Source: a virus
Direction: 5' to 3' (one strand)
Length of the DNA stretch: 64,000 nucleotides
Virus record (IMG/VR): IMGVR_UViG_3300018004_000004
Span: 62,001 to 126,000 of that record
The notes under the pieces were generated by a model. The model was not told the origin of the DNA. It saw nothing but the letters and a program-made list of their open reading frames with translations, and searched no databases. Of this stretch, positions 9,263 to 63,224 are shown one piece after another (the stretch's first letter is position 1; the number at the start of each line of letters is the position of its first letter). The translations under genes and the position numbers were made by a program.

Positions 9263-9296
9263 GTTTAACTTAGTCAAGGTCGGAGGACCAAGTACT

Positions 9297-10194: not shown

Positions 10195-10196
10195 GT

Positions 10197-10271: not shown

Positions 10272-10272
10272 A

Positions 10273-10422: not shown

Positions 10423-10486
10423 TCCGGTTTAAGGCGCGTGCCTTGGGCGCACGAGATCGAGAGTTCAAATCTCTCCTCTCCGACCA
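10408..10486 (+). tRNA. tRNA-Pro (TGG)
   Basis: Acceptor CGGAGAG/CTCTCCG, anticodon stem CGTGC/GCACG with loop CTTGGGC (anticodon 10444-10446), T arm GAGAG/CTCTC with loop TTCAAAT, A73, encoded CCA. Its first 15 bases overlap the gene at 10273. Confidence 0.94.
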
Positions 10487-39587: not shown

Positions 39588-39599
39588 CTGATTAGTATA
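39588..39599 (-). promoter_or_regulatory. Recurrent TATACTAATCAG element, promoter candidate
   Basis: Read on the minus strand, TATACT is followed by AATCAGAGGAGGTAGAT and the GTG start at 39576. It is the same 12-mer as at 4372 and 63213. It would separate baseplate genes downstream from the hub gene upstream. Confidence 0.5.
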
Positions 39600-39612: not shown

Positions 39613-42600
39613 TTAGATAAGACCCATATTGCGAGCCTGGCGGAACGAGAACATAAGGGGCTCGATTTCGTCTTCCTTGAAATACTGCCACTTTGTCTGC
39701 AAAGTACCCAGAACATCATCCACCTTCCAGCCTTCTAGACCTGAAATCCAGGGTCTCTGGAAACGAGTAAGTGGAGCAATACCCATTGGATTGAGGCGGT
39801 TAACTATCTTACCGGTCCAGAAGATAGCTGCTCCGCCTGCTAGCGCGGCCGGCACAGCAATCCATGGACTGATAGCCGCGGCGCCAATCAAGGCAAGAAT
39901 GCCTAACTCCGCCTCAACCACAGGCAAGTTGGAGCTATTGATTAGAGGATTGTGTATCGTCCAGCCTTCAATCTGGGTTTCCATTCTGGTCAGCATATCC
40001 CACACAGCCTGGTGTATAGGCATGCTCAGCTTATCGTTGATCACGACAAACGCGCGCGGACGTACGATCGTAATGAAACCAGTCTCCTGATTGAATGAGT
40101 GGATCACACTATCAACTTCGACCGGGCCCGAGATGCCGGTGGAAGGATCCAGAAGCATCAGGACATCGAAAGGCTCGATCTCTGGGTTGCCAAGAAGTAC
40201 CAACTCACCACGATAAGCCTTAGCCAGTTCATCACGCAAAAAGCTCTGCATGTAGGCATTCGTATAAGGCGTATCGCCTTTGATGTTCTTCTTGTCCACA
40301 ATGAACGGATCAGCGAGCAACATACGACGATACTGCGAGGGTATCGCTTCATTGGCTGGTAACGTCTGATTCACCAAGCGGACTGTATTGTAAAAGTTCT
40401 CATTCAGATTGATACCGTTATGAATGATGTTATCACCATTCACTAAGTGCCAACGACGGACGGGCTTCATACGAGCATTCACAGCCAGATTAGCACCTGG
40501 TTGAGTCTGTTGATTTAGCCAGGTGTAGTAGTTCTGGACTAGTTGCTGAAGACCTTGTTCTCCCTGGAATGGAGAGATTGTTTTGCCAGGAGACGTGCCT
40601 ATAACCAGGCCAAGAGAAGAAACATTACTTGCCATCTGCTGCGCGAAGATGTTAGTGATGTTGAAGAAGACTCCAGGCCCACCACCATTGATGTAACCTA
40701 TCATCTTGTCAGCGGCCGCATTAGGACTTTGTAAAGTTGCACCTACAGTAGCTATAAAGAAAGTATAGAACTCTGAGCCTTCTGTGGCGCCATTCAGAGT
40801 ATATTCATATTGGTTCTCTGCACTAGAAGCCCATTGAGAACCAACACCGTTGCAGAAAGCCCTGAACTGAGCCTGTCCACTATTGGTACCACCTGTCCAC
40901 CAGAGATTAAACTGGATCGTATCTGAAGCCGCTTGCTGCTGCAACTCGACCTCGCCTGGGACTGGCGTACGCGAAGAATAGAAATCATGTGGATTAGCAA
41001 ACACAAGGGTAGCATCCGCAGTATATGGAAAACCATATTGCTTAACGGCGAGAATGAACTCAGGATAGCGACGAGCAATATCCTGGATATACGTCCAAGG
41101 AGTCATAATAGAATCCTTGGGGATGTAGTACTCTGGCGAACCGTAGCCGCCTGGCAGTTCATACCACCACGTACGAGCTCCACCCTTTGCATCAGCTATA
41201 GCTGTACCATCTGGTCCAAAGATGTGTGTTGTTAGGATATTCTCAAAGCTACGATCGTAGCCTGATTCTAATCCAGTTGCCCCAGCCGTCAGAGGTGAAC
41301 TGCTAGCCAGAATCAAAACCGAACCCAGCAGGGTGTTCCAGTTATGGCCCTTGATGTAGTGATCCGTCGGAGCGCCAAGCTGCCAACGACCAAAATGCTT
41401 AGCTGTGCTGACACTCAGCATGGCACTCATAACGTCAGCCACAGTCCCACCTGGAGAGTTAAGGCCAGGAATCTTGTAGCCTCCAACAGTACTGTTGCCT
41501 CCGAAGGCAGGTGTGTTACCGAAGATACCACCAAGCAAATCACCTGGGATACTAGGTATATTGCTAGGAAAATCACGAACACTCTTTACAAGAGCATTGG
41601 TCAGCTTGTTGATACGCCCATCAACCGTAAATCCATCCTTACGGATCTCATCTTGGGCCGGCACAACTAGCTCCAGCATGTAGCTCTGGCAGACGATCGA
41701 GAGGATCTCATCACCCTCGATTTGTGTTACCTGGCCGGTAAAGACAGGCACAAGCAAATCAGGATTATTCGAGAACCCCATGCGCACCTGTACCTTAGTA
41801 CCGGTCTGTAGAGCAAAATAACGAAGCGGGAACTTGTTATCGACCTGGCGATTCGATGTGGTAGTATCAACAGGACGATGGGCCGCGATCTGAGGGAATC
41901 GATTATCAAGAGTCCATGCATCAGCTGTGGGCTGATTGATATCCATACTAGCCACACCACCAGCAGGGATGACAAGCTGCTGATCGGCTGGTATGTTAGT
42001 TGTTACCGGCGCGTGCAGTCTTGCTTCCTGGCGGCCTTGCGGCGTACCGTCAAACATGTGTTGATCCAACATGTGCAGGAGATTGGAGACCTGAATGACC
42101 GCTGTGTCGGGTCTATCCCGATAGCGAATGATCTCCATATCAAGAACCGTAGCATACGAGTAGAAGTTATCGTAAGCGTAGAACGGTTTCTGCGCGTTGT
42201 CTTCCATCAGGAACAACTTGAATGTGGGGAATGCCTTGGACATCGTGTAGCTAGAAGGCTTAACATTTGAAATGATAGCCTGTGCATTACCCGTGAAGGA
42301 TGCTGTATTTGTATGAACCAGCTTCCCTGTATCGACATTAGGGGTTACTTGTTCGAAGTTTGTTACCGAAGTCATTGTCTGCGAAACAATGGAAGTGATC
42401 TGCTTCTGCATGCTGGCAATCAGGTCAGCATTGTCATCATGGAAGTACATGGCCGGATTGTTATCGCGGCCGACGTATGTAACATCTTTGAGACCCATAT
42501 CCAGATAGCACGAGTGTCCTGGGAGCTGAGCATTACCAGGTGTGGTAATCGTCTGTGTTGTCACAAACATAGGTTTCAGCTGTGGAGACGACTGCGCGCG

Positions 42601-45468
42601 TTGCATTTGGTCACGAATCAACTGATAGTTGTTAGCATAGGCAAAACCCACAAACTGATCCCATAGCTGATTGACCGGTGACTCTAAAGCAGGATCTGCA
42701 GCCAGAGCTGCAGAGACACGGGCATCAATATTCTTGGAGTAGGTTTGAAACAGCTGATAATCCGGCAGCTCGGATAGAGTTGGCCAGTTCTTAATCAGGA
42801 AATAGTCGGAATAGTTTAACTGACCACCATGACTCTTGATTCGATTCGCTATATCTGGGAAGTCTTCGGTGAAGGTATTATCTCTCAGACCTGTTAGGCT
42901 GCTTGGAAACTCATCTAGCAACTTAACCATCAGCAGTTGCTCCTGTTGCTCGAAAGGAGCAGGAGACAGCACATTGTAAGCTTCACTAGAGATAGGAGGA
43001 GGAGCCAGAAAATGCGTAAGCGCTTGCTGCACCGCTGTGCCTAATGCAACACCCCCAATAGCACCTGATACTGCACCTCCGGCTGGTGTTACAGTCGGTG
43101 ATTGCTGAGTTAACCAGTTCCACAAGAACTGATTAGCTTCTGCTCCAGTAGCAGTAGTCCCTGTCACTGAAGAAACAGCGGTCGATACTGTATTTGAGTA
43201 CGTCATCATCTTTGCCAAGTTCACCAAGGCAGTGAGCGATGTATCACCAGAGAAGTCATTGACGATCGTGCCGTCACGCAGGATCTTCAGCCAGATTTGA
43301 GAGAATCCAAAGGGTGTTGTATTCACCTGATATGGATTTGGACCCTCAGCATAATAGACGTTCTCATATTGAATGGCATTGTACTGGGCAGTTACTTCAC
43401 TTGCTGCTTCAGGTATAGTCTCAGTTGTCAGTTCCTTTGTCAACAAGCCGCGAATACCCAGCATGTTAAGGACTTGGTTCTGGACTGCTATCGATTGCAT
43501 ACGATGAATAGAGTTCACACGGCGCCACTCATTGCGCAGGCTCTGGAACTGATCTTCCAGCATCTTAGTCATATTGGATAGCAAGCTGAGTCCAGTATGT
43601 TCCGGTTCCGGATAACTATCAGCTTCTGGGATCTTGGCATTCGACAGCAACCCAACAGATACCAATGTAGACCCAGGACCCAAGTGCTGATAGGTAGGAT
43701 ATTGATATCCAGCCAATGGTATCTGAGAGATGTTATTGACGAACACAACGGAGATCTGCATCGGATAGATAAAGTGTTCTGGATCTATATCTTCGATATC
43801 CGAGCTGGCCGGCTGATCATCATTCTCCTTCGCTGTCATCTTGATGTAGTGTTCTTTGTATAGGAACGCAGCAGACTCAGTAGCATAATCATACGTATAG
43901 TTGTTGTTCAACAGATAGCGAATCTGCGTTGTCATCGGCGGTGGGGTTGTCGCAGTCGGTGGCGGGTTGGTTGAGTTAGAAATGTTTGGAGGTGTGTTTG
44001 TGTTATTACCGCTTACCACTGGAGTGGTATTCGTTGCCGGGTTAGGATTACCAGCAGGCGGTATTGTACCTTCCTGAGGAGTGAAAGCATTTGGATCATT
44101 CGATAGTGTGCGGTAAGTATTCGTAGCCTTCGTGAACCAAGTGTTATCCATACTTGGAGAACCTTGTCCATTATTCACGATGCCTTGTCCAAAACGATGT
44201 GCTTCCCAAGCCGACAGAGCAGAACCATTGTTAGCACGCAGCTTGAGAATAGCCCAACCTGTAGCCATGTCATTCTGAAGCTGGGCTTGTCCACCTGTGA
44301 TAGGCGGGCTCATCATCCAAGAGATATAGGTTGCCAATACAGGATCTGTTGACTGCGGACTTGGAACAGACTTAGAGCCCCAGTTGTATCCATTGTTGGT
44401 ACGAGCAGCAACTAGATAACCACTCTGCACAGCCACAGAAACATAGTGTGTGCCAAGATAAGTATCAGCTGCCTTCATAGCATCAATAGCAGCCGCGCGC
44501 ACCCACTGCAGAAGACCTACTGCAGCCGAAGGCTTGCCGGTATTGGTCACTGTAGACTTGTTGATCGCCGAATAGTTATTATTGGATTCCGGAAAGGCAG
44601 CAGACTTCACCCACCACTGAATAGCAGGATTATGGATATCAGTTGTGTCGATAATGATGTTATCTACGAAGTTTCCAGCGCTGGCTTTCCCCTGCGCAGC
44701 AGTACCTTGTCGAGTGGCTCCAGGATTGGCTGGATTGAGGGCTCCAGATCCGGCCGGCGGAGGATTGAGACCTGTATCGTTAGGCAGTGCACAAGCAGCA
44801 TACTCGCGCGCAGTAAACGTAATACTACCAGGTATTTGTCCCTGCCAGTTCGTGGAGGAGACAGTCATACCTGTATCAGGCTGTTGGGTAGGATCACTAT
44901 TCAGATTCGTCTGGATCCAGTTCAACAAGTAAGCTGTGAAAAGTGGCGAGTTCAGAGCACTGGAAGTAGAGTTGCCTGTCCAATCATCATACTGGAAGTT
45001 CTTGGAGTACGGACGATAGTTGAAGTACGACATCGTCATGGTAACTTGCAGTGTGTCAATCAAATCAGGATTAGTTTCCACACGCATCTGACGCAGAGCA
45101 AAAGCCATAACGTCATCTGCAGTAGCTCCTTGAGTTAGAACTGCAGGGTTCACGATCTGACGGATATGATCGTTCTCTACTTCAACGAAGGGAGCAGCCT
45201 TAAACATAGCCAGGAGCATCTGTACATCAGTCCATGCTGAGTAGTCGGCATTATCATAATCAGCAACGCACTTCCAAGTCCACGTTACATCCCAACGCGA
45301 CTGACCAGTCTTGATAGGAATAGCGAACGGGAAGCGCAGAGGCATAACCTCTTCTCCGTTGATAACCTTGTGGCACTGAATCTGTTCCGGAGGAATGTTC
45401 AGTACAAGGTTACCAATACGGAAGTATCCCGCTTGATTGTCATCTCGAGTTGTGATTATCTGTCCCAT
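39613..45468 (-). CDS. Giant baseplate hub with lysozyme-like insert, 1951 aa
   Basis: ATG at 45468 overlaps the upstream stop. The 1951-residue protein has, in order: an N-terminal tube-adaptor-like domain (residues 1-180); a lysozyme/SLT-like region near 285-410, with PESNNNYSAIN (candidate catalytic E294), SAAVGLLQW and ALSAWEAHRFGQG, like the E..G..Q and AYN.G motifs of soluble transglycosylases; Pro/Thr-rich linkers; a gp27-like hub domain near 1220-1265 (GTKVQVRMGFSN, PVFTGQVTQIEGDEILSIVCQSYMLEL); and a C-terminal hub domain near 1700-1810 (AYMQSFLRDELAKAYRGELVLLGNPEIEPFDVLML). It is likely a fused central hub that opens the cell wall. Far longer than T4 gp27 (391 aa). Confidence 0.78.
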   Translation of the reverse strand: MGQIITTRDDNQAGYFRIGNLVLNIPPEQIQCHKVINGEEVMPLRFPFAIPIKTGQSRWDVTWTWKCVADYDNADYSAWTDVQMLLAMFKAAPFVEVENDHIRQIVNPAVLTQGATADDVMAFALRQMRVETNPDLIDTLQVTMTMSYFNYRPYSKNFQYDDWTGNSTSSALNSPLFTAYLLNWIQTNLNSDPTQQPDTGMTVSSTNWQGQIPGSITFTAREYAACALPNDTGLNPPPAGSGALNPANPGATRQGTAAQGKASAGNFVDNIIIDTTDIHNPAIQWWVKSAAFPESNNNYSAINKSTVTNTGKPSAAVGLLQWVRAAAIDAMKAADTYLGTHYVSVAVQSGYLVAARTNNGYNWGSKSVPSPQSTDPVLATYISWMMSPPITGGQAQLQNDMATGWAILKLRANNGSALSAWEAHRFGQGIVNNGQGSPSMDNTWFTKATNTYRTLSNDPNAFTPQEGTIPPAGNPNPATNTTPVVSGNNTNTPPNISNSTNPPPTATTPPPMTTQIRYLLNNNYTYDYATESAAFLYKEHYIKMTAKENDDQPASSDIEDIDPEHFIYPMQISVVFVNNISQIPLAGYQYPTYQHLGPGSTLVSVGLLSNAKIPEADSYPEPEHTGLSLLSNMTKMLEDQFQSLRNEWRRVNSIHRMQSIAVQNQVLNMLGIRGLLTKELTTETIPEAASEVTAQYNAIQYENVYYAEGPNPYQVNTTPFGFSQIWLKILRDGTIVNDFSGDTSLTALVNLAKMMTYSNTVSTAVSSVTGTTATGAEANQFLWNWLTQQSPTVTPAGGAVSGAIGGVALGTAVQQALTHFLAPPPISSEAYNVLSPAPFEQQEQLLMVKLLDEFPSSLTGLRDNTFTEDFPDIANRIKSHGGQLNYSDYFLIKNWPTLSELPDYQLFQTYSKNIDARVSAALAADPALESPVNQLWDQFVGFAYANNYQLIRDQMQRAQSSPQLKPMFVTTQTITTPGNAQLPGHSCYLDMGLKDVTYVGRDNNPAMYFHDDNADLIASMQKQITSIVSQTMTSVTNFEQVTPNVDTGKLVHTNTASFTGNAQAIISNVKPSSYTMSKAFPTFKLFLMEDNAQKPFYAYDNFYSYATVLDMEIIRYRDRPDTAVIQVSNLLHMLDQHMFDGTPQGRQEARLHAPVTTNIPADQQLVIPAGGVASMDINQPTADAWTLDNRFPQIAAHRPVDTTTSNRQVDNKFPLRYFALQTGTKVQVRMGFSNNPDLLVPVFTGQVTQIEGDEILSIVCQSYMLELVVPAQDEIRKDGFTVDGRINKLTNALVKSVRDFPSNIPSIPGDLLGGIFGNTPAFGGNSTVGGYKIPGLNSPGGTVADVMSAMLSVSTAKHFGRWQLGAPTDHYIKGHNWNTLLGSVLILASSSPLTAGATGLESGYDRSFENILTTHIFGPDGTAIADAKGGARTWWYELPGGYGSPEYYIPKDSIMTPWTYIQDIARRYPEFILAVKQYGFPYTADATLVFANPHDFYSSRTPVPGEVELQQQAASDTIQFNLWWTGGTNSGQAQFRAFCNGVGSQWASSAENQYEYTLNGATEGSEFYTFFIATVGATLQSPNAAADKMIGYINGGGPGVFFNITNIFAQQMASNVSSLGLVIGTSPGKTISPFQGEQGLQQLVQNYYTWLNQQTQPGANLAVNARMKPVRRWHLVNGDNIIHNGINLNENFYNTVRLVNQTLPANEAIPSQYRRMLLADPFIVDKKNIKGDTPYTNAYMQSFLRDELAKAYRGELVLLGNPEIEPFDVLMLLDPSTGISGPVEVDSVIHSFNQETGFITIVRPRAFVVINDKLSMPIHQAVWDMLTRMETQIEGWTIHNPLINSSNLPVVEAELGILALIGAAAISPWIAVPAALAGGAAIFWTGKIVNRLNPMGIAPLTRFQRPWISGLEGWKVDDVLGTLQTKWQYFKEDEIEPLMFSFRQARNMGLI

Positions 45469-48400
45469 TAGGATTCCAGTTGTTCTCGAATCGTCTCACG
45501 ACGGCGGAGAGTACTCATCTTGTTTCTCCATCCGTTGCGATAGTTCACATTGATATTTGATACACCATTATTGCCAGAGATCTGACTAATCATACGTTGC
45601 ATTTCAATCGTATCCTGGCGATTCTGAGCCTTCATTCTTACTTCCAGATCTGTACGCTGGCGCATTGGCGCCACGATCGTTGTAGATGTACCACCGCGCA
45701 GAGGAAGCTGACGACGAGGTGGGTTAACAGAAGACATAGCACCGGTTATTGGCTCGCCCGGGACCTGATCTGTTACAGTCTCAGTAGTTTCTGGTCTGAA
45801 GTTCCCACGCGGCCGACCGAAAGTAGCCTGCGTCGGAGTAACCTTCTTGACATGGCTGGTAAGAACTGCTCCTACAGCCGCGGCTCCGACTCCAATAGCC
45901 AGAACACCTAGGTTACCTTTGGACTCTCTGTAAGTACTCTTGAGACCCTCATTGATGGCGCCGAGGACTTTGGAAACAGACATCCCCGAGCCTTTCTCGC
46001 GCGCCAGGCCAATCAGCCAAGGAGGAGGCGTACCCATCTCCTTGTACAAGGCCTGCAGACGATAGAGGGAATCACCCTCCATATCCGTAGTTGCCTTAGT
46101 CAGAAGTTCGGCAGCACGATCTGCCCTAACATTACGCCCTATGATAAACTCGGAGAGTGTTCCTTGGAACTTCTCGGAGTCCAGCACGTCCATCAAAACA
46201 TTCCGCTTGGTGCCGGGAGCTACCCTCATCCCAGTAAGCTCTTCAAACAAAGGAGCGGTCTCTGCAGTAATGATCGATTCCTTACCGTAGCCAGAGATAA
46301 CTTCCCTCATACCCTCGGTGAACTTAGCTACACCTTCCGGCGTGCGAGATTCCAAGCCACCTACCAATCTTCTGTACAATCCCAGAGGATCCTCAGGATT
46401 CAACTTCATCTTGCCCTTCTGGGCAGAGATAGGTACCTGACGGATCGTCCACAGCATGTGACCGAGGATATCTCTTTCCATCGGCTTCACACCGATTGTA
46501 GGATGCATCTCGACGTTCATGTACAAGCGAGTCAGTAAGTTAGAGTACGCACCAACCACACCACCAGCCATACGCTGTGTGACTTGTTCTGCTCTTCCAC
46601 CTGCACTAGCCAACTTAAGACTTTCTTCAAGCATAGAAGGCAGAGTCTTCACACCAGCTTCTGCGATGTTACGTGAGTCTTCAACGCTCCCGTACAGCAT
46701 CTCAAGAGTCTTCAGGCTTCTCCACTGGTTGCTATTCAGAGCATTGATAGCAGCCTGGGCTTCACGTTCGGCTTGAGAACCCTTGCGATAGAAGAACAGA
46801 TTCAGGATATCCTTATCGTCATCGGCGCCGAACAAGCCACGGATGCGCTCATCCATACCGACCATGTTAGGACCCATGCCAGCATCAGGAGCCACCTTCA
46901 CACGCATGTAAGGAGCTGACTGAATAGGGTGACGAGCAGCCGTAGCGTAGATATCTTCTCCGGCGAGTAATGCTTTACGGATCTCTGGGTCGCGGACTCG
47001 GCCGGCCATCTGCTCATTGATAAGGAGTTCAAATGGGTTTTCCTGGGCGCGCGTCTGAATGAAACCAGACACAGCTCCCAAGACATCTGTACCACGGGCA
47101 CGGTAGAATCCTTCCTTCCCGAACAGTACACGCTGGGCTTCATCAAGGTGAGCGGAGATCGCCGCGGACATCATAACGGGATCCTTCTGCCACTTGACTA
47201 CGTCCGCCAGCGTCTTTTCATAATCCGTGGGGCTATAAGTAAGACCCTCACCAACCTTTTCATAGAGGTTGCTACCACCGCCGTGTGCCAACTTACCAAG
47301 GACAGGAATGTGAGTAACTTCAAGGTCACGTCCAGCCACACGTGCGTACACCGGCTGATCAAGTTTGATAGAAAAGTTCTCTTGGACGAGCTTATTTGAG
47401 GGATCAAAGATACCTCCAACTCGGCCTTCCATCGTGCCTATTCTGAGATTGGCTGCAGCCTCCTCTATGGGGATAACAGTCCCCAGAGACTTGGTGAAGT
47501 CACCACCTACGAACTGGGCAGCAAAAGCAGAAGCTCTTCCCGGATCGCCACCATGGAAATCCAAGCGGCTCATCAACTCCTTCATACCTTCCACATTACC
47601 AGCTCTCCACATCTCGGAGAACATATCGTATGTGGCGCCGACCATCTGAGGTACATTACGGCGAGTGCTATCCCAGAACGCCGCAAAGGAGAACATGGCG
47701 TTCTTCTGCATGTAGTTCATCAGACTTTCTTCACCGCTACGTCTGAAGGCAGAGAAGAGCTCACCCTCGGTCCCAGGAGCACCACGCTGAGCAAAGCCAG
47801 CAACATCACGCAGGTAGTCTTCTGTAAGTTGACCCACCGACTGCATACGGAGTCGACGGCCCTCCAGATCCAGGCTGCGTACGTATTCCGAATCTTCGAG
47901 CAGATGGAAGACGTTATTTCCAGTACCAGTACGCTGCGCGCGAATACCCTGAGCAGCAAGATCAGCCATGTACTTATTGACACGATCCAATGCTTCCAGG
48001 TTTGCCCAGTCAGCCTTTAGATGCACACTGTTAGCAGCAATATCGCTAGACACAGCAGCTGCTTGCGATACCATAAGGCGGAAAGGATCGCTAGTCTTAG
48101 CTTGCATGTAGTGTAGCGGAGCTAGAGCTTCCACAAAGCTAGGGATAGCAGTCTTAGATCCAGTAGCTTCACCGTATAGATTCAGCAGCTCGACCTGGCG
48201 ACGGAAGATGTCTTCCTCGGGTACGATAGCCAGACCCTTCACGCCAGCGATGTCAATCTTGGCTCCTGTCTCTACTGGATACTCTTGACGCAGCTTGAGC
48301 TCGAACTGGCCGCTAGGTGTAGTGGACCAGCCTTCTATGAATGTAGAAGGAGCTTCCGACGTGACAGGATTCAAACCCTCAAATCCGATTAGTGTCTCTG

Positions 48401-50237
48401 GGCTAAGGGACTTTTTGATGTAATCCTCGGGGTTGAGATGAAGCTTGTCGACGTAGACGTTCTTACGCGACTCCATCTTCAGCCGGCGGAACTTCTCGTG
48501 AAGGATAATATCACCTTCACCCAACCCACCCAAGCCACGGCCGGCTTCTAGATAGCCCTTCTCGCCGAGCTTACCACTGATCTTACCCCAAGCAGCCTCT
48601 GCCTGGGCGCGTGTCATCTTTGGATTGTCGGCCAGTATGCGTTGGATAGCAGTCTCTTTATAGCCAGCCAATCCTTCTGCTGTTTTCGGCAAGTCGCCGA
48701 ACAGCGACTTCTGTTGTGGCGACACACCAGCCACGGACATCTGTATTTCCGGAACACCTCCGATGGATTCAACCGCGGAAGTTGTAAAGCTTGGACGGAA
48801 CTCCTCACCAATGGTCTCAGCTTTCAGCTGCAAGTCCTTGGTGAAGGATCTATAGAAATACGTTTGCTTAGCGAGCGAAGGCGCACCTCCCGGGATGTAG
48901 AGTTCCGATTCAGCGAACTCGAACACACCTTTCGATGTGCCTCCCTCAGAACCAATGCGAGTCATACCACGACCCAGCATCTTGATAGTGTACTGGATCC
49001 GTTCCAGGTCTGACAGATCCTCAAATGCCTTGCCTCCATAAATAGGCAAGCTGCTAGGAATAGCAGCGCGAGAACGGATATACAGAGCTTGTGGAGAAAG
49101 GTTAGCAAGCTGGGATTCAAGACGTGTTTGAAGCTTGAATGGATCTTCGGGGACCACGCCGCCGAAATAAGCAGCACGACCAATATCACCTTTCAGCTTT
49201 CCCCAATCCTGAGTCAGGTGTTCAGCAACGAATGTATCCAGTTCGAATACTCGTTCTGGCGTGTGAATGTGGCGCCCGACTCCAACCTTGCCTTCAATGT
49301 TGACGGATCCTGTCTTGGGATCAAACAGAGGGATATGAAGCTCGCCCTTTGGACCCTTGATGTTGACACCCAGCATACGGCCGACAGTTCCATCTGCCAC
49401 CTGCTCGGCAACGACCGTAGCAGAGGACACCTGTCCCTGACGGATCGCGCGCTGAATAGCATCAGCTACTTCTGGACGCTGACCGTGCAACTGACCATAA
49501 GCTTCCAGCCACTCCATACTAGTAGTCTTACCAGTCATGCTCATCTTGAGTGGATTGGCAAACGGACCGAGATCCTTGAGCTTCTTGGCCCAGCCAAGAC
49601 GGCTACTCAGCTCCTTGACGAAGCGGGGATCAGCTCTATTGGCGTTGACGATACCACGGAGCTCTGACTCTGCCATGCCGGCCAGAGGACCTCCGCGCGC
49701 AACTCTAGTAAGATCTAGCGGAGAAGCTACCCGCTGTCTGGCGCCTTCCACAGCATAGGTAAGCAGATCACGCTTGTTAGACATGCCCAGAAGCTCATGA
49801 AAGAGGTTCTCCGCCTGCTCCATGCTCTTCTCGATCGGTGGCCCACCGCGGTCAACCTGGCTGAAGAAATCTACGGCCGCATTGTCGGCCCAGGTACGGA
49901 AGATGGGATTGAGAGCTCCTGCACCCCCACCTGTCTTTTCCAGAGCTGAACGTAAGTCCTTGAATCTAGTAGCTTTATTGCTACCAAAAAACATAGGCAT
50001 CTCACGTGCGAACTGCATGCCAGCTCGAGCTGTACGGGAGGCAGATGTTACCAAGCCCGGGCCGGCAAGACCCATAGCCGCTACAATAGGGGTAGTTATG
50101 ACGGCAGTCCGGAAGTAACCGCGGTTCTCATCCTTAAGGAAAATAGGGGCCGTAGCCGAGGCAAAGGCAGTGGCAAAGGCCACACCTGGATGTTCAGTTG
50201 CAAGGCTTTTAACGGCTTTTAGGAACCCGGTAAACAT
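45468..50237 (-). CDS. Giant tail/ejection protein with RNAP-like DxDxD signature, 1589 aa
   Basis: ATG at 50237; the stop overlaps the hub start. Hydrophobic segments lie near the N terminus (residues about 18-70, VAFATAFASATAPIF, AVITTPIVAAMGLAG) and C terminus (LGVLAIGVGAAAVGAVL, about 1455-1475). Residues 1100-1165 resemble the active-site region of double-psi beta-barrel RNA polymerase beta' subunits: RHP at 1102-1104, GADDDKD with D1139, D1141, D1143, and AEREA ending at 1160. In E. coli beta' the RxP is at 425, D460/462/464, and EA at 479-480, so spacings are 37 versus 35 and 17 versus 16. VGAYSN and ISAQKGK follow, comparable with motifs of single-chain polymerases. A virion RNA polymerase or ejected protein is proposed; tape measure is the alternative. 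Confidence 0.6.
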   Translation of the reverse strand: MFTGFLKAVKSLATEHPGVAFATAFASATAPIFLKDENRGYFRTAVITTPIVAAMGLAGPGLVTSASRTARAGMQFAREMPMFFGSNKATRFKDLRSALEKTGGGAGALNPIFRTWADNAAVDFFSQVDRGGPPIEKSMEQAENLFHELLGMSNKRDLLTYAVEGARQRVASPLDLTRVARGGPLAGMAESELRGIVNANRADPRFVKELSSRLGWAKKLKDLGPFANPLKMSMTGKTTSMEWLEAYGQLHGQRPEVADAIQRAIRQGQVSSATVVAEQVADGTVGRMLGVNIKGPKGELHIPLFDPKTGSVNIEGKVGVGRHIHTPERVFELDTFVAEHLTQDWGKLKGDIGRAAYFGGVVPEDPFKLQTRLESQLANLSPQALYIRSRAAIPSSLPIYGGKAFEDLSDLERIQYTIKMLGRGMTRIGSEGGTSKGVFEFAESELYIPGGAPSLAKQTYFYRSFTKDLQLKAETIGEEFRPSFTTSAVESIGGVPEIQMSVAGVSPQQKSLFGDLPKTAEGLAGYKETAIQRILADNPKMTRAQAEAAWGKISGKLGEKGYLEAGRGLGGLGEGDIILHEKFRRLKMESRKNVYVDKLHLNPEDYIKKSLSPETLIGFEGLNPVTSEAPSTFIEGWSTTPSGQFELKLRQEYPVETGAKIDIAGVKGLAIVPEEDIFRRQVELLNLYGEATGSKTAIPSFVEALAPLHYMQAKTSDPFRLMVSQAAAVSSDIAANSVHLKADWANLEALDRVNKYMADLAAQGIRAQRTGTGNNVFHLLEDSEYVRSLDLEGRRLRMQSVGQLTEDYLRDVAGFAQRGAPGTEGELFSAFRRSGEESLMNYMQKNAMFSFAAFWDSTRRNVPQMVGATYDMFSEMWRAGNVEGMKELMSRLDFHGGDPGRASAFAAQFVGGDFTKSLGTVIPIEEAAANLRIGTMEGRVGGIFDPSNKLVQENFSIKLDQPVYARVAGRDLEVTHIPVLGKLAHGGGSNLYEKVGEGLTYSPTDYEKTLADVVKWQKDPVMMSAAISAHLDEAQRVLFGKEGFYRARGTDVLGAVSGFIQTRAQENPFELLINEQMAGRVRDPEIRKALLAGEDIYATAARHPIQSAPYMRVKVAPDAGMGPNMVGMDERIRGLFGADDDKDILNLFFYRKGSQAEREAQAAINALNSNQWRSLKTLEMLYGSVEDSRNIAEAGVKTLPSMLEESLKLASAGGRAEQVTQRMAGGVVGAYSNLLTRLYMNVEMHPTIGVKPMERDILGHMLWTIRQVPISAQKGKMKLNPEDPLGLYRRLVGGLESRTPEGVAKFTEGMREVISGYGKESIITAETAPLFEELTGMRVAPGTKRNVLMDVLDSEKFQGTLSEFIIGRNVRADRAAELLTKATTDMEGDSLYRLQALYKEMGTPPPWLIGLAREKGSGMSVSKVLGAINEGLKSTYRESKGNLGVLAIGVGAAAVGAVLTSHVKKVTPTQATFGRPRGNFRPETTETVTDQVPGEPITGAMSSVNPPRRQLPLRGGTSTTIVAPMRQRTDLEVRMKAQNRQDTIEMQRMISQISGNNGVSNINVNYRNGWRNKMSTLRRRETIREQLES

Positions 50238-50307: not shown

Positions 50308-53300
50308 TTAGCTGGTGCTCTCTTCCCGGTACTCGTCCTCATTCCGGCGAATATCCCGCATAACCTCTTTGTCTCCCTGTTCGTCGACGCTTATAGACAC
50401 GTTGGAGCCTGCCACTCGGTTAGGACCGCCCGAGGAGACCACTTGCGGATTCTTATCTTGTCCCTCGAGGATAATACGCTCCACAGTTTGTCGTATGCGT
50501 TCTGTAGGTTGTGAACCGCTAGAAACAAGTTCTCGCACAGCTCCATCGATGTAGGGCTTGCGCCAGAGGAGGGCTGCCCGGTCGTCGTAGATGTTGAAGT
50601 CGTGGTAATCATAGCCTTCGTTCTGAATAATCTTAAGCTTGACATCCTCATAGTCAATGCCTTGCTCCCATAGCGGAGAACCAGGACCGGGGATATCAAA
50701 GCCGAGCTTGCCAAAGGTTTCGGCGATTTGCTTCGAACGGATGTAGTCTGCGTAGCTGAGGTCTGTTTTCGCTTGCTCATACTCTTTGAGGCCTTCCTCT
50801 GTGTAGAGGACTCCGCCTTCTTCAATGGCTGGTATTATCTTGCCCGCGAGGCGAGCAAGCATAGCATCAGTTTTTACCCACTGAGCAGTAAGGGCTCGGG
50901 CTAGTTCCGGAGAGACAGATTCAAGAATCTGCTGGCGCTTGTCCGGATCTGTTTCTTGGAGGAATGCTGGGAAGTAAAGCTTCTCGCGCCGAGGGAGGGT
51001 TTGAGAGACAAACTGAGGATTGCCAAAGAGATTGGCACCAATATTCGTTCTCTTACCCTGACTAGTATACCTGCCTTTCTGGCCTGGATGCGCTCCTGCC
51101 TGCACATCTGCACGCAGATATTCCAACTCATCGACCAAGCTATCCATTAGACGGCGATGTTCGACTTCTTCCGGCACCAATACACCGCCAGTGAAACGAC
51201 GGTAGGTACCGCGGGCCCATGCAGCAATCATATCATGGAACGGCTTCTGCCATCTACGCATGCGCGCGCCGTAGACTTCCTGTTCCTGATAGAGAGACAA
51301 AGCTGTGCGCTCATTCCAGTACTTTGTGTGGAATGGAGTTGGTACGAAGCGGAGAGGTCCACCCTCACCTGTGAAGGCCAGAGTCTCGGCGTACTTACCG
51401 AGAGCTACCTGGGTGGAGGAATACATGGCCTGAGCTTCTGCCCCGCCGTAATCCTTTCTGAACTGTCCGAGACCTCGATCGATGATTTCTTTGTTGATAT
51501 TAACATCATCAATGAAGATGACAGCACGAGACTCAGCCGCATGCTCTTCAGTACCCTTAGGCACAACAAGAGTAGCCTGCATGCCAACCTGGCTAGACAA
51601 GTAATCATCCAGAGAAGCTTGTTTCTCCGTAACGGCCTTAGCACTCTGAGAGCGAGTAAGTTCATTCTCCTCGCCGAGTGTTGTAGCTGAGAGATCGGAA
51701 GCAGACATACCAAGAGAACTGAATATGAACTTGCGTCCTGGATACTGCTCCAGCTCAATACCTTCTGGTGTAGCCTTGGTGATCGTTCCTTGGATCTGTT
51801 CGATCGAAGCAGTGAAACGACGCTGACCGAACTGGATCGTCGATTCCTTCATCTGGCGCACTTGATCTTCAGTGCGTGCAAACTCGATCTCCAGACGAGC
51901 ATCTCTCTGTGCGGCCGCGCGCACCTTGGAGCGATAGATCATGTACTCCTTACTCCAAGGAGCAACATCAGCCAGAATCTTGTAACGATAGATGTCTGGG
52001 TATTCTTCTGCCTTCAAGCCACGAAGCTCTGGATGCAGAGCAGCATAACCACGGCCTGGAAGACGAGCACCACCTTCCGGTATCTTGGCGAACGGATCGC
52101 CAGTACGGAAGTTGATCATGTAATCTTCGCCAGGCAGCCAACGAGGCATTGTATTCGGGATCTCATTAGCTTGCGGAGCTAGCTTATCAGGCTGAATGAA
52201 ACGGCGGAGAGGTTCTGAATAACCGAACGGCATGCCACCAGTTCCGCTAGGGTTGAAGCCAGACACAGCACCCAACTCACGCTGGTAGTACTGACGGGAC
52301 AGATTCGTCATTTGACGACTGCCCTGCAATACAACATCTTGACCCGGTGTTCCGGCGCCAGGAGTTCCAGCCTTACCATAAAGGGTTGTAGCTATGAACC
52401 CAGGCAGACCTGTATATTCAGCAAAGGCCAGCGCTTCACGACCGACAACATCCTTGAAGCCAAACTCCTCACGAGGCCGAGATGGCGCCAGGCCACCCAA
52501 CGCCATGTTAGGTTCTAGACGCGGGCTATACAACGTATAGTTGTTGATGTCCCATTCGCCTTGGTGCATTCTCTGTGTTGGCTTTACGATGCGGCCGACT
52601 GTGGCAGCCAGCAGCGGACCAATGAGAGGCACGTTGGAGAAAGCAGGAGATGTGATTGGGTATGGACGGCTAGCGTAGTTCGCGCGTTCCAGCCAGTATG
52701 GATCCTTTATGTACTTGAACGGATGCAGCAGTGGGTGATGTTCCCAGTATGCATCTTCCGAACCATAGGTCGATACCATCTCGGCCTTGGTCTTCATCAA
52801 CTGATACCAGTGCGGACGGAAGTACTTGATGCGACCGCCACTGAACGGAGTGGAACCTACATCCCACCAACGGCCGGCGCGGATTGGAACTTCTTCTTCA
52901 CCAGAGTAGATGCGTTGCAGCTCATCTTCAGTCTTACGGCTGCCCAACATACCAGGCACGAAAGGCAGAGCCAGCAAAGCACCGATACCTGCACCCTTCC
53001 AGAAGGCCTTGTGAGAAGCAGCTACTCGAGCAGCGTGGACTGGGAACTCTTGGGCGCCACGAGCAATGTTGACCCAGTGAATACCTGCACCAATAGCACC
53101 AGCTCCGATAGGCAGAGCTAACGGACCATACTGCGGACCTGGTACGATCTCTTCGTACTTATCTGTGATCGCACGGAGGCCTGGGATTGCGTCGGTTGCG
53201 CGCGCCCAGGCAAGATGAGCCTTAAGCGGAACCTCGGCGAGCGTCTCAGCTGGTTTATTTCCCAGCTGGTAGTTGATGTAACGTGCGGCCGTGATAGCAA

Positions 53301-55233
53301 GATATGCAGGCAGCACACGCTTGAGCATCAGCGCATTGAGCATTCCGCCTTCGCCGGCGAACGGAATGTGGAACAGTTTGTTGTATGAGCCCTTAGGCAG
53401 ACCCATACCGATATCAGACAACAGACGGAGTGGGCGCTCAGCAGCTTCGAATGCTACACGTTGACCTGTTCTGTAGGCCGATTCGATACCACCCACGAGT
53501 CCAGGCTGACGACCGTAGAGAGGTTCGAAGAACTGGAACTCTCCACCAATCTGTCTCTTGAAAGCCTGTCCCTTTGTGAGGGGAGTTCCTGGTCTCTGGC
53601 TGGCGCGGAGATTCTGGAACATCTCCCACATCTCAGCAAGAGGACCTTTGTCAGTCAGTGTACGAGGGAATACCTGTTCGCGGAGCTTGGCGCCAAAGGC
53701 AGCCGATGATCCTGTCAGCCGGCCGCGTTCGGCAAAGCGAATAGCTTCACCGCGGCCGCCAACCAAACTCAGATACGGAGAGGAAGCTGAGGTTCGAGTG
53801 AACCTCATTCCTGTCTTAGCAAAGCGTTCATCCAGGGCGCTGACACCAATCAGGCGCTCGATGTGCTTACCCATCTCGGTAAGCTCAGAACCGCGTATCA
53901 GTTGTTCGGCCGCAAAGGAAACTTCCTCTGGCAGATAACTGGACATGCGCTGAGACAGACCGAAGGTACGGAAGAGGCCGCCAGGCGAACGCGCTTCTAC
54001 CGTCTTCATGAACTGATAGACGCCCTCAGCATAGCCAGACCAGTTCTTAAGAGCAAACTTATGTGCTCCTACAACTGCGGCGCCACCAGCCAACCAGGCA
54101 GCTACCTTCAGAGTATTGCGATCGTCCTGTCCATCCCAACCGGATCCAAAATCAGTCAAGGCATGACGGCTCTCAGCAGCCAGACCTGTACCACTCAAAC
54201 CGGTGATCTGAGTCTGACGATCGCTTCTCTTGCTGCTTGCGATAGCCCACGCTGCGGTTGCCGCGGCAGCAAAGACCAGGGCAACAGAGATACCCTTTCC
54301 TATGGCACTGACTTTGTTAGGCAGGACCTTGGCACCACGCTCAGCCTGAGCAGCTACCTTCTCAGCCCAGGGGCTGGCATAGATCTTGGAGAAGAACGTC
54401 TCGGCAGTCTCACCTGGGGGCAAGAGTTGTGCAGAGCCCAGAGCTTCTTCCCAACTGTGCCCACGCTGTAGGTTTCTCTTGGCTGTGCGCAGGCGCTCAA
54501 AGAGGGTCTGCTCGACCTTGACGTCAGTCACAGCCTCATGATAGCCGGCAGCTCCAGCCAGCTTGGGACCCATGAGTCTTTCAAGTCCGCCGGCCGCACC
54601 AGCAATATTCTCAACCTTCCAGCCAGGAACCCACTGCATCTCCTCTACGTTACGCGCCAGCATACCTGGGCCGGTAGTCTTGGAGATAGGAGTGGATGGG
54701 CCCATGCGCAGGTGACGTTCTGCGAAAGCTGGGTTGTCTTGTCCGTAACCCAGCGCCAGTTCAAAGAATGACTGCTCCAAGCCGAATACCTTTACTCCCT
54801 TGCGCTTGAAGAAGTCCTTGTATCCAGCGAGGCTGGGATAACGGCCGGCGATCTCAGTGAGCACACCAGTATCGTACTTGACATTCCAGCCAGTCAGTAG
54901 GAAACGCTTCTTACGAGAGAGTTCTTCTTCGGCCGAGGCAAAGAAGCGTCGAGCTGCTTCTTCTTCACCGACCTGACCAAGCTTCATAGCCTGAGAAAGA
55001 ACTTGCTCGCCTTTCGCATAGTTGTACGCAAACGGGATATGAATCCCGCTCACAGGATCGGTATATCCAGTGCGAGGCTTTACTAATGTGGTGGGATGAA
55101 ACGGGGATGCTACGTAAGGAGGGAGTTTTGAAGCGAAGATCTGGAGCAGGCCTGTGTTCTTATGTCCAGCGGACAGGCCTGTAGTCTCGACGTCGAGAAC
55201 ATGAAAGAAATGCTTTTGATGCCAGGTTGCCAT
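50308..55233 (-). CDS. Giant tail protein with DEDDh exonuclease and SNase-like domains, 1641 aa
   Basis: ATG at 55233, six bases after the Fe-S carrier gene; ribosome binding site weak. Residues 9-245 form a DnaQ/RNase T-type exonuclease: VLDVETTGL (D14, E16), GWNVKYDTGVL (N117, D121) and GYHEAVTD (H232, D237), so all five DEDDh catalytic residues are present. Hydrophobic segments near 310-330, 375-392, 715-735 and 760-778 suggest membrane insertion. Around residues 1135-1280, ending SRAVIFIDDVNINKEIIDRGLGQF, the sequence resembles the end of a staphylococcal-nuclease (SNase) domain. The place after the tail-assembly genes is that of the tape measure. It may line the tail tube and act on nucleic acid during ejection. 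Domain calls are motif-based. Confidence 0.75.
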   Translation of the reverse strand: MATWHQKHFFHVLDVETTGLSAGHKNTGLLQIFASKLPPYVASPFHPTTLVKPRTGYTDPVSGIHIPFAYNYAKGEQVLSQAMKLGQVGEEEAARRFFASAEEELSRKKRFLLTGWNVKYDTGVLTEIAGRYPSLAGYKDFFKRKGVKVFGLEQSFFELALGYGQDNPAFAERHLRMGPSTPISKTTGPGMLARNVEEMQWVPGWKVENIAGAAGGLERLMGPKLAGAAGYHEAVTDVKVEQTLFERLRTAKRNLQRGHSWEEALGSAQLLPPGETAETFFSKIYASPWAEKVAAQAERGAKVLPNKVSAIGKGISVALVFAAAATAAWAIASSKRSDRQTQITGLSGTGLAAESRHALTDFGSGWDGQDDRNTLKVAAWLAGGAAVVGAHKFALKNWSGYAEGVYQFMKTVEARSPGGLFRTFGLSQRMSSYLPEEVSFAAEQLIRGSELTEMGKHIERLIGVSALDERFAKTGMRFTRTSASSPYLSLVGGRGEAIRFAERGRLTGSSAAFGAKLREQVFPRTLTDKGPLAEMWEMFQNLRASQRPGTPLTKGQAFKRQIGGEFQFFEPLYGRQPGLVGGIESAYRTGQRVAFEAAERPLRLLSDIGMGLPKGSYNKLFHIPFAGEGGMLNALMLKRVLPAYLAITAARYINYQLGNKPAETLAEVPLKAHLAWARATDAIPGLRAITDKYEEIVPGPQYGPLALPIGAGAIGAGIHWVNIARGAQEFPVHAARVAASHKAFWKGAGIGALLALPFVPGMLGSRKTEDELQRIYSGEEEVPIRAGRWWDVGSTPFSGGRIKYFRPHWYQLMKTKAEMVSTYGSEDAYWEHHPLLHPFKYIKDPYWLERANYASRPYPITSPAFSNVPLIGPLLAATVGRIVKPTQRMHQGEWDINNYTLYSPRLEPNMALGGLAPSRPREEFGFKDVVGREALAFAEYTGLPGFIATTLYGKAGTPGAGTPGQDVVLQGSRQMTNLSRQYYQRELGAVSGFNPSGTGGMPFGYSEPLRRFIQPDKLAPQANEIPNTMPRWLPGEDYMINFRTGDPFAKIPEGGARLPGRGYAALHPELRGLKAEEYPDIYRYKILADVAPWSKEYMIYRSKVRAAAQRDARLEIEFARTEDQVRQMKESTIQFGQRRFTASIEQIQGTITKATPEGIELEQYPGRKFIFSSLGMSASDLSATTLGEENELTRSQSAKAVTEKQASLDDYLSSQVGMQATLVVPKGTEEHAAESRAVIFIDDVNINKEIIDRGLGQFRKDYGGAEAQAMYSSTQVALGKYAETLAFTGEGGPLRFVPTPFHTKYWNERTALSLYQEQEVYGARMRRWQKPFHDMIAAWARGTYRRFTGGVLVPEEVEHRRLMDSLVDELEYLRADVQAGAHPGQKGRYTSQGKRTNIGANLFGNPQFVSQTLPRREKLYFPAFLQETDPDKRQQILESVSPELARALTAQWVKTDAMLARLAGKIIPAIEEGGVLYTEEGLKEYEQAKTDLSYADYIRSKQIAETFGKLGFDIPGPGSPLWEQGIDYEDVKLKIIQNEGYDYHDFNIYDDRAALLWRKPYIDGAVRELVSSGSQPTERIRQTVERIILEGQDKNPQVVSSGGPNRVAGSNVSISVDEQGDKEVMRDIRRNEDEYREESTS

Positions 55234-59228: not shown

Positions 59229-59927
59229 TTAGCTGCCACCTTCACCAGAAAGATTCGGGAAGGCAGTTACCACAGCAGACCAAGGTTCAACGAGACGAGC
59301 AACCCATGTTGCCTGCATCTCGGTCACCGCGTCATCGATGCTGACTCCCATACCTTCATTTAGGATCTCAACACCGAAGATCTTCATCGTAGTGGCGGCT
59401 CCGATTTCATTCGTACCGGCCAGAGTGATGTCAAAGGGAAGGATTTGATCCGAGTACCATGGTACAGCTTCCTGCTTGAAGCCCGAGACCGCGTTGACCG
59501 GCACTTCGGCCGAATCAACAGTCGTCGGGAGCGGGATGGGGACTGCACGTGTCAGAGACGAGGAGAAGATCGCTGTCTGCGAGAGCTGCTGTTGGGCAGC
59601 TGGGTTGTATTCCGGACGAACGTCATCGATGTTGGCTACGAATACACCAGATGCTTCATAGATGATGTTCAACAGAGCATGACGATCGAAGTTGATCCAG
59701 ACCAAGGAGCCAGCAACGCCGCGCTTGTTACGGCTAAAGGCACGAGGGTCGGGAGATCCCATCGTGTAGATAGGCGCCTTCTCGCGAGTAACGCTGTAGC
59801 TGATCGCCTGGATCTCGGCGAACGGGATGTTGCCGATCTGGGCACGGATGTCCGAGCCTGAGAACGAGTTGTAGGAACGAGCGATTTCGCTTTCGAGCGA
59901 GTTACCGCCATTTGTATTAATAGCCAT
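59229..59927 (-). CDS. Major tail tube protein
   Basis: ATG at 59927 follows AGGAGTCATAAACAA. The 232-residue protein sits directly after the sheath gene, the standard position for the tube. It has the tube pattern ISYSVTREKAPIYTMGSPDPRAFSRNKRGVAGSLVW at residues 42-77, and later LPFDITLAGTNEIGAATTMKIFGVEILNEG and a C-terminal acidic end. It polymerises to hexameric rings around the ejected DNA. Followed by a terminator, in line with high expression. Confidence 0.88.
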   Translation of the reverse strand: MAINTNGGNSLESEIARSYNSFSGSDIRAQIGNIPFAEIQAISYSVTREKAPIYTMGSPDPRAFSRNKRGVAGSLVWINFDRHALLNIIYEASGVFVANIDDVRPEYNPAAQQQLSQTAIFSSSLTRAVPIPLPTTVDSAEVPVNAVSGFKQEAVPWYSDQILPFDITLAGTNEIGAATTMKIFGVEILNEGMGVSIDDAVTEMQATWVARLVEPWSAVVTAFPNLSGEGGS

Positions 59928-60017: not shown

Positions 60018-62483
60018 TTAGCCGTTCAGGTTAATACCGATTGTGGCATTCAACTGAACCAGCTCATTTGCAGGAACGAAGCTGATCTGGATTGAAGCCT
60101 GACCAATCTTCTGCTGAGCTGGAGTGGATGTGATCGTGAAGTTGTAGCTCGAGAGATAACCGCGCTTCTGGAGGTTCAAGCAGTCGGCGTCAAGAGCAGT
60201 CTTCAAGGCCACCAAGGACAAACCATCGTTGGTTCCGTTGCCAATGTAGTTGTTGGCCTCTCCCAGAACTGTCTGGATGACCAAGAACTTGATGCGCTGA
60301 CGGAGAGCCAGAGTATAATCGCTTGCCACTGTTGCCGCGGTCTTGTCGATCAAGGCAACCGGCAGAACACCCACACCCTTGTAACGAAGCATGTTGATGT
60401 CTGCGAATGTGAGAGCATCGAGCTGGTTGAGGCTTGCACGATAGAGCTGCTGTGCACCCGCAACTGGCTTGTTGGTAACTGCCTTCTGCTGGTCGAGCGT
60501 GCTGACCAAGCCGGCGATGATACCAGCAATGTTGCCGACGTAAGTGCCGTAGCCGTTCGACAGGAGAGCGTAATCACCCTGTGGACAGAGATAAGCACCC
60601 ATATCAACCTTGTAGCCGTTGCTGTCGATTTCCGGGCCACCATCGTACTCACCCGAGTCTGTATCAAACAGACCAGGCAGACGGTAACCATTACTCCAGT
60701 CGGCGCATGCCGAGTTCAACGAGCTGGCGCTGCAGCCAACCAACCAAGGAGTACCCAGCAAACCGCCACCTGACGTTGCCGGATTACCTGTGACCGGGTT
60801 ATAGGTCGGCAGATAGCCGATCCATGCCTTCACAGCCGGGAGCGAGAAGTTGCTCAAGCTTGCGGGACCACCAAAGCCGATGAAGCCGAGGCAGCCGCCA
60901 TTGTCAGCCTGAGGAGCTTCGCTCTGATTGAAGCAGAAGCGCGCGAGCTGATAAGCGAAGTTGACTTCGTGGAATCCGGACTGTTGGACTGTTCCACCAG
61001 CGCCGACACCAGATGCCAAACGAGTAGCAGCAGTGGAGAAGCTGAACACAACAGGAGTCGTCGGAGAAACCTGACCCTGAAGCAGAGCAGAAGCCAGCTG
61101 CTGGTTGTTGGAGTTGTAGAAGTGAGCATCCGAGGCCCACTGATAAATAGGATTGCCGGAGGCGTCAACACCAGTCCACAACCAGTCAAGAGCGTTGGGG
61201 TTCGTAACTGGATTGTTGATGGCTGTCGAGGCGCCTGTATAGAACGCAACGTTCGGGTTGTCACCGAGAGCGCCAGGAGTGATTGCTTCATCGATCGGGA
61301 AGCCCTGGAGCAGGTTGATTGCATTCTGTTGTGCGATGTACAGCTGGCGGCCAGTGAGACCGATACCTGTGATTGGCGCGACGTATACTGCACCACCACC
61401 GATGTTCTGGATCTCAACAGCATTTGCCAAACTGTCTGTACCAGTACCGATTGCGGTACCAGCAATAGCAGAACCTGTAACCTGGGAATCACCAGTGTTC
61501 AGGATTGCGGAGCTGCCTGTCACGGCCGGGTCGTTAGACCAGACCACCTGGTTATCAAGCCACAGAGAGAGCAAGCCGTTCTTGTACCACACGCTGTAAC
61601 GCGAGTTGGCATCTGCTTCGACCTGGCCCAAAGTGATGAGTAAGCCAGGATATGCAGCAACCGGCTGCTGGCCGTAAGCTGGAGTTGCAGACAGAGTACC
61701 TGCTGTAAGAGTGTAAGGACCGCCCACTGTGAAAGGACCAGCAGCAGTCAATACGATATCGTGTGTACCAATGCTCAGAACTTCGTACACTCCGTCCAAA
61801 GCAGACGAAGGAGAACCAAGACCAGCATCAGTCAAACCTGCCAGTGTAACCTGGGCGCCGACCACAACACCCGCAGTAGGAGAACCAGAATAATGCAGAT
61901 CAACTGTCGTTGCAGTCAATGCTTGAACTGTCTGGAAGTTAGCAAACGTATCTGCGATCGCCGTTGGAGTTTCAATAGCGTGATCAGGCGAACCAATCTG
62001 GTCCACCAGGATTGTGTTGCCAACGACCTGTGAAATCGGCTGTGCTGCGATATTGTAACCGGCGAAGGAGAAACCTGTTACTGTAAGAGGAGCCCCATCA
62101 ACCAGGTCAGCAGTCGGAGGAAATGCAGTTGTGTAGGTGATAACACCATCAGACAGAACTGCGCTAATGATGGCATTGTTCGGACCAAAACCGGATCCAG
62201 AAGTTCCAACCAGAAGAGTGCCCTGAGCAGTACCGACGCGCATCAGGTAAACATTGTCGCAGTATACGGCCGCTTCAGACATCCCGCGGATTAGCGTACC
62301 TTGCAGCCCGAAAAGAGTGGTTGCTGTAGCAACGCTTACAACCTGATAAGGGCTGTTTGCGGGTCCAGTCGCGGAGGTACCAAGGACCATGATGGATTGA
62401 TTTGTTGGGGTGTTAACGGCGGCCAGACCACCGTCTACGGTCTGTACCTGGACACCCGGCAGATTTGCAAAAGTGAAGGACAT
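60018..62483 (-). CDS. Tail sheath protein
   Basis: ATG at 62483 follows CCGGAGGAAAAG. The 821-residue protein starts FTFANLPGVQVQTVDGGLAAVNTPT, the sheath N terminus that links neighbouring rings, and ends with the conserved contractile core: TFADINMLRYKGVGVLPVALID, LRQRIKFLVIQTVLGEANNYIGNGTND, ALKTALDADCLNLQKRGYL, and QIGQASIQISFVPANE-style strands. About 200-250 extra residues in the middle (beta-rich, Gly/Ala/Thr-rich) make it longer than T4 gp18 (659 aa). It contracts to drive the tube through the envelope. Confidence 0.93.
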   Translation of the reverse strand: MSFTFANLPGVQVQTVDGGLAAVNTPTNQSIMVLGTSATGPANSPYQVVSVATATTLFGLQGTLIRGMSEAAVYCDNVYLMRVGTAQGTLLVGTSGSGFGPNNAIISAVLSDGVITYTTAFPPTADLVDGAPLTVTGFSFAGYNIAAQPISQVVGNTILVDQIGSPDHAIETPTAIADTFANFQTVQALTATTVDLHYSGSPTAGVVVGAQVTLAGLTDAGLGSPSSALDGVYEVLSIGTHDIVLTAAGPFTVGGPYTLTAGTLSATPAYGQQPVAAYPGLLITLGQVEADANSRYSVWYKNGLLSLWLDNQVVWSNDPAVTGSSAILNTGDSQVTGSAIAGTAIGTGTDSLANAVEIQNIGGGAVYVAPITGIGLTGRQLYIAQQNAINLLQGFPIDEAITPGALGDNPNVAFYTGASTAINNPVTNPNALDWLWTGVDASGNPIYQWASDAHFYNSNNQQLASALLQGQVSPTTPVVFSFSTAATRLASGVGAGGTVQQSGFHEVNFAYQLARFCFNQSEAPQADNGGCLGFIGFGGPASLSNFSLPAVKAWIGYLPTYNPVTGNPATSGGGLLGTPWLVGCSASSLNSACADWSNGYRLPGLFDTDSGEYDGGPEIDSNGYKVDMGAYLCPQGDYALLSNGYGTYVGNIAGIIAGLVSTLDQQKAVTNKPVAGAQQLYRASLNQLDALTFADINMLRYKGVGVLPVALIDKTAATVASDYTLALRQRIKFLVIQTVLGEANNYIGNGTNDGLSLVALKTALDADCLNLQKRGYLSSYNFTITSTPAQQKIGQASIQISFVPANELVQLNATIGINLNG

Positions 62484-63212: not shown

Positions 63213-63224
63213 CTGATTAGTATA
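63213..63224 (-). promoter_or_regulatory. Recurrent TATACTAATCAG element, promoter candidate
   Basis: On the minus strand TATACTAATCAG starts about 32 bases before the ATG at 63193 and would drive the terminator, sheath and tube genes. Same 12-mer as at 4372 and 39588. Confidence 0.5.

Follow-up and report, generated by a model that had tools for sequence, protein, structure and literature searches.

P0001 and its polymerase-type motifs

This analysis concerns P0001, a gene in a window of 64,000 nucleotides (G000:C1:62001-126000) taken from a virus record of 215,395 bases, IMGVR_UViG_3300018004_000004. The gene encodes a protein of 1589 amino acids (aa) and lies in a tail cluster which runs from the sheath gene through two tail-tube-like genes, a 1641-aa gene, P0001 and a 1951-aa hub/lysin gene to the baseplate genes, among them a baseplate wedge (phrog_6, E=1.4e-34) (Table 1). 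A sequence-only reading of the window had proposed that this protein may be a virion RNA polymerase (RNAP) delivered through the tail, given a signature resembling the catalytic loop of the RNAP beta' subunit. We confirmed the open reading frame (ORF) on the minus strand with its ATG start, and found R1102-H-P1104, GADDDKD with D1139, D1141 and D1143, and AEREA up to A1160 at the residues given in that reading, as well as VGAYSN (1228-1233) and ISAQKGK (1270-1276) downstream of them.

The sequence-only reading had identified no lysine-bearing barrel of the beta type, but a candidate for it is present, marked by the segment TGAKIDIAGVKG with K660 and K667. The lysine pair of the RNAP beta subunit has the form GDK...GNKG, and TGAKIDIAGVKG matches it in order and roughly in spacing. 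Both barrel signatures lie within the one 1589-aa ORF, and a split into beta and beta' chains of the phiKZ/AR9 type was not found. Moreover, the lysine-bearing segment precedes the DxDxD barrel in the chain, which is the order seen in single-chain two-barrel RNAPs.

When P0001 alone was compared with Pfam and PHROGs, only weak, unrelated families were returned (Phi6_P8, E=0.0015, below the cut-off), and single-sequence searches matched no record of the phage collection and no PDB sequence. In 20,000 shuffles of P0001, DxDxD appeared in 10% of the copies and the combination RxP-(30-42)-DxDxD in 0.5%, so that the DxDxD motif by itself is suggestive and no proof. We accepted the motif as real because it is conserved across a family of relatives.

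Conservation and predicted fold across the family

Relatives were gathered through the tail tube, which gave 409 in the viral collection (80 of these were kept), and the slot of P0001 was read in them as the position after the tape-measure-like gene and before the hub gene. A large DxDxD protein occupies this slot in 45 records, a count which includes near-identical records, this window, Acinetobacter phage ME3 (gp36) and Bacillus phage KLEB27-3 (gp34, which carries the depositors' annotation 'structural protein'). In an alignment of 24 representative sequences, P1104, D1139, D1141 and D1143 are the sole invariant columns, and P303, G618, K660 and R1102 are nearly invariant. A separate alignment of 25 sequences gave the same picture, with the three aspartates and P1104 present in 25/25, K660 in 24/25, K667 in 20/25 and R1102 in 23/25. 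This conservation holds among relatives down to ~11-15% identity, and a comparison of profiles shows homology between two clades within the family (876 columns, E=3.2e-16). The aspartates, whose conservation the sequence-only reading had suggested checking, are invariant in both alignments, while R1102, for which invariance had also been asked, is nearly but not strictly invariant, being replaced by Lys in two sequences.

The spacing from RxP to the triad is 37 residues in P0001 and typically about 35, and a few members have RxP further upstream through insertions. The Lys found at the position of the DFDGD glycine, previously raised as a doubt, is not counted against an RNAP because members of the family have K, G, A, L, Q, D or R there. 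A dead RNAP fold, retained as a structural or ejection protein, would accord with the very high divergence of the family and with the missing DFDGD glycine in P0001; however, nothing in the protein is better conserved than the Asp triad, the Pro and the first Lys, which is the opposite of a decayed enzyme, and we regard this explanation as very unlikely.

A profile built from 16 family members was searched against PDB sequences, and all 23 matches were RNAP beta', RPB1 or phiKZ RNAP (best E=0.05), with alignments that run through GKxG..R, RxP and DxDxD. Structure prediction followed by a fold search, as the sequence-only reading had advised, pointed in the same direction. An AlphaFold2 model of residues 420-1490 (mean predicted local distance difference test score, pLDDT, 71; predicted template-modelling score, pTM, 0.64) was compared with the PDB by Foldseek, and the best 50 matches were without exception RNAPs, some beta'-type and others beta-type, with 35 of them at E<=1e-3. 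The top match is a beta'-type chain of the AR9 non-virion RNAP (7s01_d, E=6.6e-5), and the beta-type matches include vaccinia 9ex9_B (E=2.6e-4) and 7amv_B. From these matches a double-psi beta barrel (DPBB) topology may be presumed for P0001, in which the Lys pair would face the Asp triad. The earlier RNAP hypothesis is supported, as neither outcome that it had named as refuting was encountered: the three aspartates are conserved in homologues, and the fold matches of the model are to RNAPs. An ordinary tail protein with a DxDxD motif arisen by chance, for which the frequency of the motif in shuffled copies would leave room, is hardly credible, given that 45 records have this motif at the corresponding gene position and that fold and profile searches return only RNAPs.

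Among viral predicted structures, the best fold matches included numerous RNAP subunits of viruses, ME3 proteins and a 'minor tail protein' from a siphovirus. The BFVD entries A0A8S5SD80, A0A7R7G2L5 and A0A172Q0S6 are unannotated viral fold matches, which include the siphovirus protein and a second ME3 protein. A 2456-aa relative of KLEB27-3 gp34, with ADNDGD, is encoded on the minus strand of a 244-kb record (L195:4616-11983), and no relative turned up when genome-collection contigs were scanned with the alignment of the distant clade. Four of eight tail-tube relatives in genome collections lie in contigs of metagenome-assembled genomes labelled Acidobacteria, which is weak evidence on the host. 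We considered MTATph1 CDS0027 (L003:12513-16442) as a slot polymerase and rejected it, as it lacks DxDxD and has a domain resembling exonucleases (RNase_T, E=5.4e-5); CDS0027 precedes a transposase gene, and the KLEB27-3 polymerase aligns weakly near its N-terminal end.

The separable C-terminal module and a second polymerase-like protein

Two records of the lineage (G025 and G029) lack the polymerase part and have at the slot a 198-aa ORF with homology to the final ~166 family positions (E=4e-26). This ORF combines a hydrophobic stretch with a proline-rich part and a C-terminal motif common to the ends of most family members; a hydrophobic helix around residue 1450 is likewise seen in most close relatives of P0001. 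The existence of a stand-alone homologue implies that polymerase and C-terminal anchor are separable, the simplest reading being that the protein is held to the tail by its C-terminal end, with the polymerase as a module which can be lost. A polymerase module that can be lost in turn argues that P0001 is not the tape measure. This natural loss also offers a ready comparison for studying how the polymerase is attached to, and released from, the phage tail.

The alternative is an RNAP fold fused into the tape measure as in phage P23-45, in which case P0001 would both set tail length and carry the polymerase. Such an arrangement would agree with the annotation of phage 0305phi8-36, where the tape measure orf146 directly precedes the hub gene orf147 (PMC2147016), and with that of ME3, which describes gp35 and gp37 as homologous to the 0305phi8-36 proteins flanking the orf146 slot. 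Nevertheless, a separate large gene of about 1160-1990 aa stands before the polymerase in most records, and in G025 and G029, where this upstream gene remains ~1290 aa long and only the 198-aa remnant is left, the polymerase part cannot span the tail. In none of the records read were RNAP and tape measure found in one polypeptide, and we consider a fusion of the P23-45 type unlikely.

The genome encodes a second single-chain RNAP-like protein, P0007 (970 aa), which contains a K..K segment, HRQPNAH and GGGDQDD. Homologues were found in 7/34 records searched, with K221, K240, R417, P419, D464, D466 and D467 invariant, so the triad takes the form DxDD, as opposed to DxDxD in P0001. Although the P0007 model is poor (pTM 0.41), all 21 of its PDB matches at E<=1e-3 are QDE-1 or RDR2 (best 1.4e-11). 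QDE-1 chains are absent from the 50 best PDB fold matches of P0001, and at E<=1 the PF05183 (QDE-1/RDR) profile matched nothing in the genome record. By analogy with P23-45, P0007 may be the non-virion enzyme. An ancient duplication giving rise to both enzymes, in the style of P23-45, is unsupported, as the family profiles of the tail polymerase and of P0007 share no similarity.

The G..SN and IS..K segments downstream of the active site, which had been likened to motifs of QDE-1/YonO-type enzymes, are conserved across the P0001 family and are also typical of the RDR/QDE-1 clade. The VGxxSN and ISxxK segments could be read as those of a two-barrel RNAP which is not injected, being either late by operon position or RNA-templated like the QDE-1/RDR enzymes. 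We think this quite improbable: all relatives that were read have the polymerase gene inside the tail cluster, and here it overlaps the start of the hub gene; a QDE-1-like role is already taken by P0007, outside the tail cluster; and loss of the polymerase leaves the C-terminal end in place at the tail slot.

We also identified a 12-bp motif, TATACTAATCAG, as a candidate phage promoter. It occurs in 11 exact copies in the record, without a conserved upstream (-35) element, and stands directly before several gene starts and one tRNA; counted over the stretches without one copy, there were 10 exact occurrences vs 0 in shuffles. The window further contains an array of ~24 tRNA genes (1610-10486, plus strand) and a phage-encoded tmRNA (11138-11483, plus strand; Rfam RF00023, E=1e-59) with the tag AEFEELPLAA.

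Table 1 Positions of P0001, its motifs and related features. Coordinates are those of the window unless a record is named.
Feature	Position	Strand	Basis or remark
P0001, 1589-aa single-chain two-barrel RNA-polymerase-like protein	45468..50237	minus	ORF read, ATG at 50237
Predicted beta-type barrel DPBB-B, residues ~576-671	48225..48512	minus	DSSP strands of model, beta-type PDB matches; approximate
TGAKIDIAGVKG, residues 657-668, lysine pair K660/K667	48234..48269	minus	alignment
GKEGFYR, residues 1040-1046	47100..47120	minus	HMMER alignment to KGKEGR.RGNL...R of RPB1/beta'
Predicted beta'-type barrel DPBB-A, residues ~1049-1149	46791..47093	minus	model, PDB profile and fold matches; approximate
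R1102-H-P1104	46926..46934	minus	alignment of 25
GADDDKD, catalytic-type Asp triad D1139/D1141/D1143	46809..46829	minus	invariant in both alignments
VVGAYSN, residues 1227-1233, conserved G..SN segment after active site	46539..46559	minus	family alignment
RQVPISAQKGK, residues 1266-1276, conserved IS..K segment	46410..46442	minus	family alignment; I1270 in 22/25
C-terminal hydrophobic helix, residues 1443-1461	45855..45911	minus	same place in most close relatives
End of C-terminal domain, residues 1559-1589	45471..45563	minus	homologous end is a stand-alone 198-aa ORF elsewhere
1951-aa baseplate hub/lysin gene	39613..45468	minus	ATG overlaps P0001 stop (TAATG)
1641-aa gene upstream of P0001, tape-measure candidate by position	50308..55233	minus	synteny
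Tail tube homologue, query for finding the lineage	59229..59927	minus	homology
Tail sheath	60018..62483	minus	phrog_16991, E=2.1e-42
P0007, 970-aa second single-chain RNAP-like protein	G000:C1:163948-166860 (L167:149-3058)	plus	motifs, fold match
TATACTAATCAG, copy in window	4372-4383	plus	one of four of the 11
TATACTAATCAG, copy in window	21781-21792	minus	one of four of the 11
TATACTAATCAG, copy in window	39588-39599	minus	one of four of the 11
TATACTAATCAG, copy in window	63213-63224	minus	one of four of the 11

Proposed role and comparison with known systems

We consider it probable that P0001 is a single-chain two-barrel virion RNA polymerase, which would be anchored in the tail and injected and would transcribe the first genes. 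Its catalytic activity, its presence in the virion and its injection are what we infer for P0001, as are the genes that each of the two enzymes would serve. Tail delivery fits the position of the gene, the 'structural protein' label of KLEB27-3 gp34 and the separable C-terminal domain, and the counterparts found across a broad lineage of large phages suggest that such viruses supply the host with a transcription enzyme of their own via the tail. Several points weigh against this interpretation. In sequence, the resemblance to known RNAPs falls short of the usual level of significance (E=0.05 for the PDB profile), and the PF00623 match seen in one member, KLEB27-3 gp34, is likewise below the cut-off (E=0.015). 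Foldseek aligned only local parts of the model, at low TM-scores (0.10-0.16 of the query), ME3 gp36 and the MTATph1 slot gene are annotated as hypothetical, and the candidate promoter TATACTAATCAG is attributable to neither polymerase.

In the mechanism we propose, the beta-type barrel (K660/K667) and the beta'-type barrel (RxP and a Mg-binding DxDxD) would form one active site, and the C-terminal hydrophobic helix together with the conserved end domain would probably dock the polymerase beside the tape measure and the hub. The polymerase would be packaged in the virion, enter the host together with the DNA or before it and start transcribing the first phage genes before host machinery is needed. 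The early genes served would perhaps include that of P0007, and the second enzyme would then take over, as in P23-45 (PMC10770324) and phiKZ-like phages (PMC7598289).

We lean slightly towards the broader view that an entire lineage of large phages with sheaths, related to 0305phi8-36 and ME3, carries an unrecognised family of single-chain virion RNAPs, anchored in the tail by a separable C-terminal part. In that case 0305phi8-36 orf146, interpreted as a tape measure since 2007, would be a member of this polymerase family. No report of such a tail polymerase family was found in the literature searched, the coverage of which left out most subscription papers and preprints. If true, a broad and mostly uncultured lineage (the 409 tail-tube relatives) would join the few groups known to have a packaged cell-type RNAP, and a function open to testing would be assigned to a very large gene in at least two cultured phages.

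The sequence-only reading had called P0001 unlike any annotated tape measure, but a published precedent exists in the tape-measure-fused RNAP of P23-45 (PMC10770324). This protein, gp96, is a 5002-aa fusion with the RNAP at its N-terminal side and was found by DxDxD reasoning (PMC10770324). It is the nearest precedent for P0001, as it is likewise a giant tail-cluster protein with two barrels per chain, in a genome with a separate non-virion single-chain RNAP; P0001 differs in its sheath-bearing lineage, in having its gene apart from the tape-measure-like gene and in its separable anchor at the C-terminal end. The virion RNAP of crAss-like phages (phi14:2 gp66) is also a single-chain enzyme with two DPBBs, packaged for early genes (PMC7886860, PMC10770324), and its sequence around DxDxD is, like that of P0001, extremely divergent; its gene, however, sits in the crAss transcription block, whereas P0001 is in the tail cluster. 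Phage 0305phi8-36 shares the tail lineage according to the ME3 gene notes, and its QDE-1-like gp99, which is encoded outside the tail cluster and is distinct from the P0001-type protein, is the likely counterpart of P0007 (PMC2147016, PMC7824862). The phiKZ and AR9 phages similarly have a pair of virion and non-virion cell-type RNAPs (PMC7598289), but these are split over four or five polypeptides, in contrast to the one chain of P0001. The virion RNAP of N4, found in schitoviruses, is also giant and ejected into the cell (PMC12633501), but has an unrelated, T7-like RRM-palm fold (PMC7824862), and the only N4-type signal in the P0001 family was a chance-level match to Pfam vRNAP_plug in one member (E=0.14).

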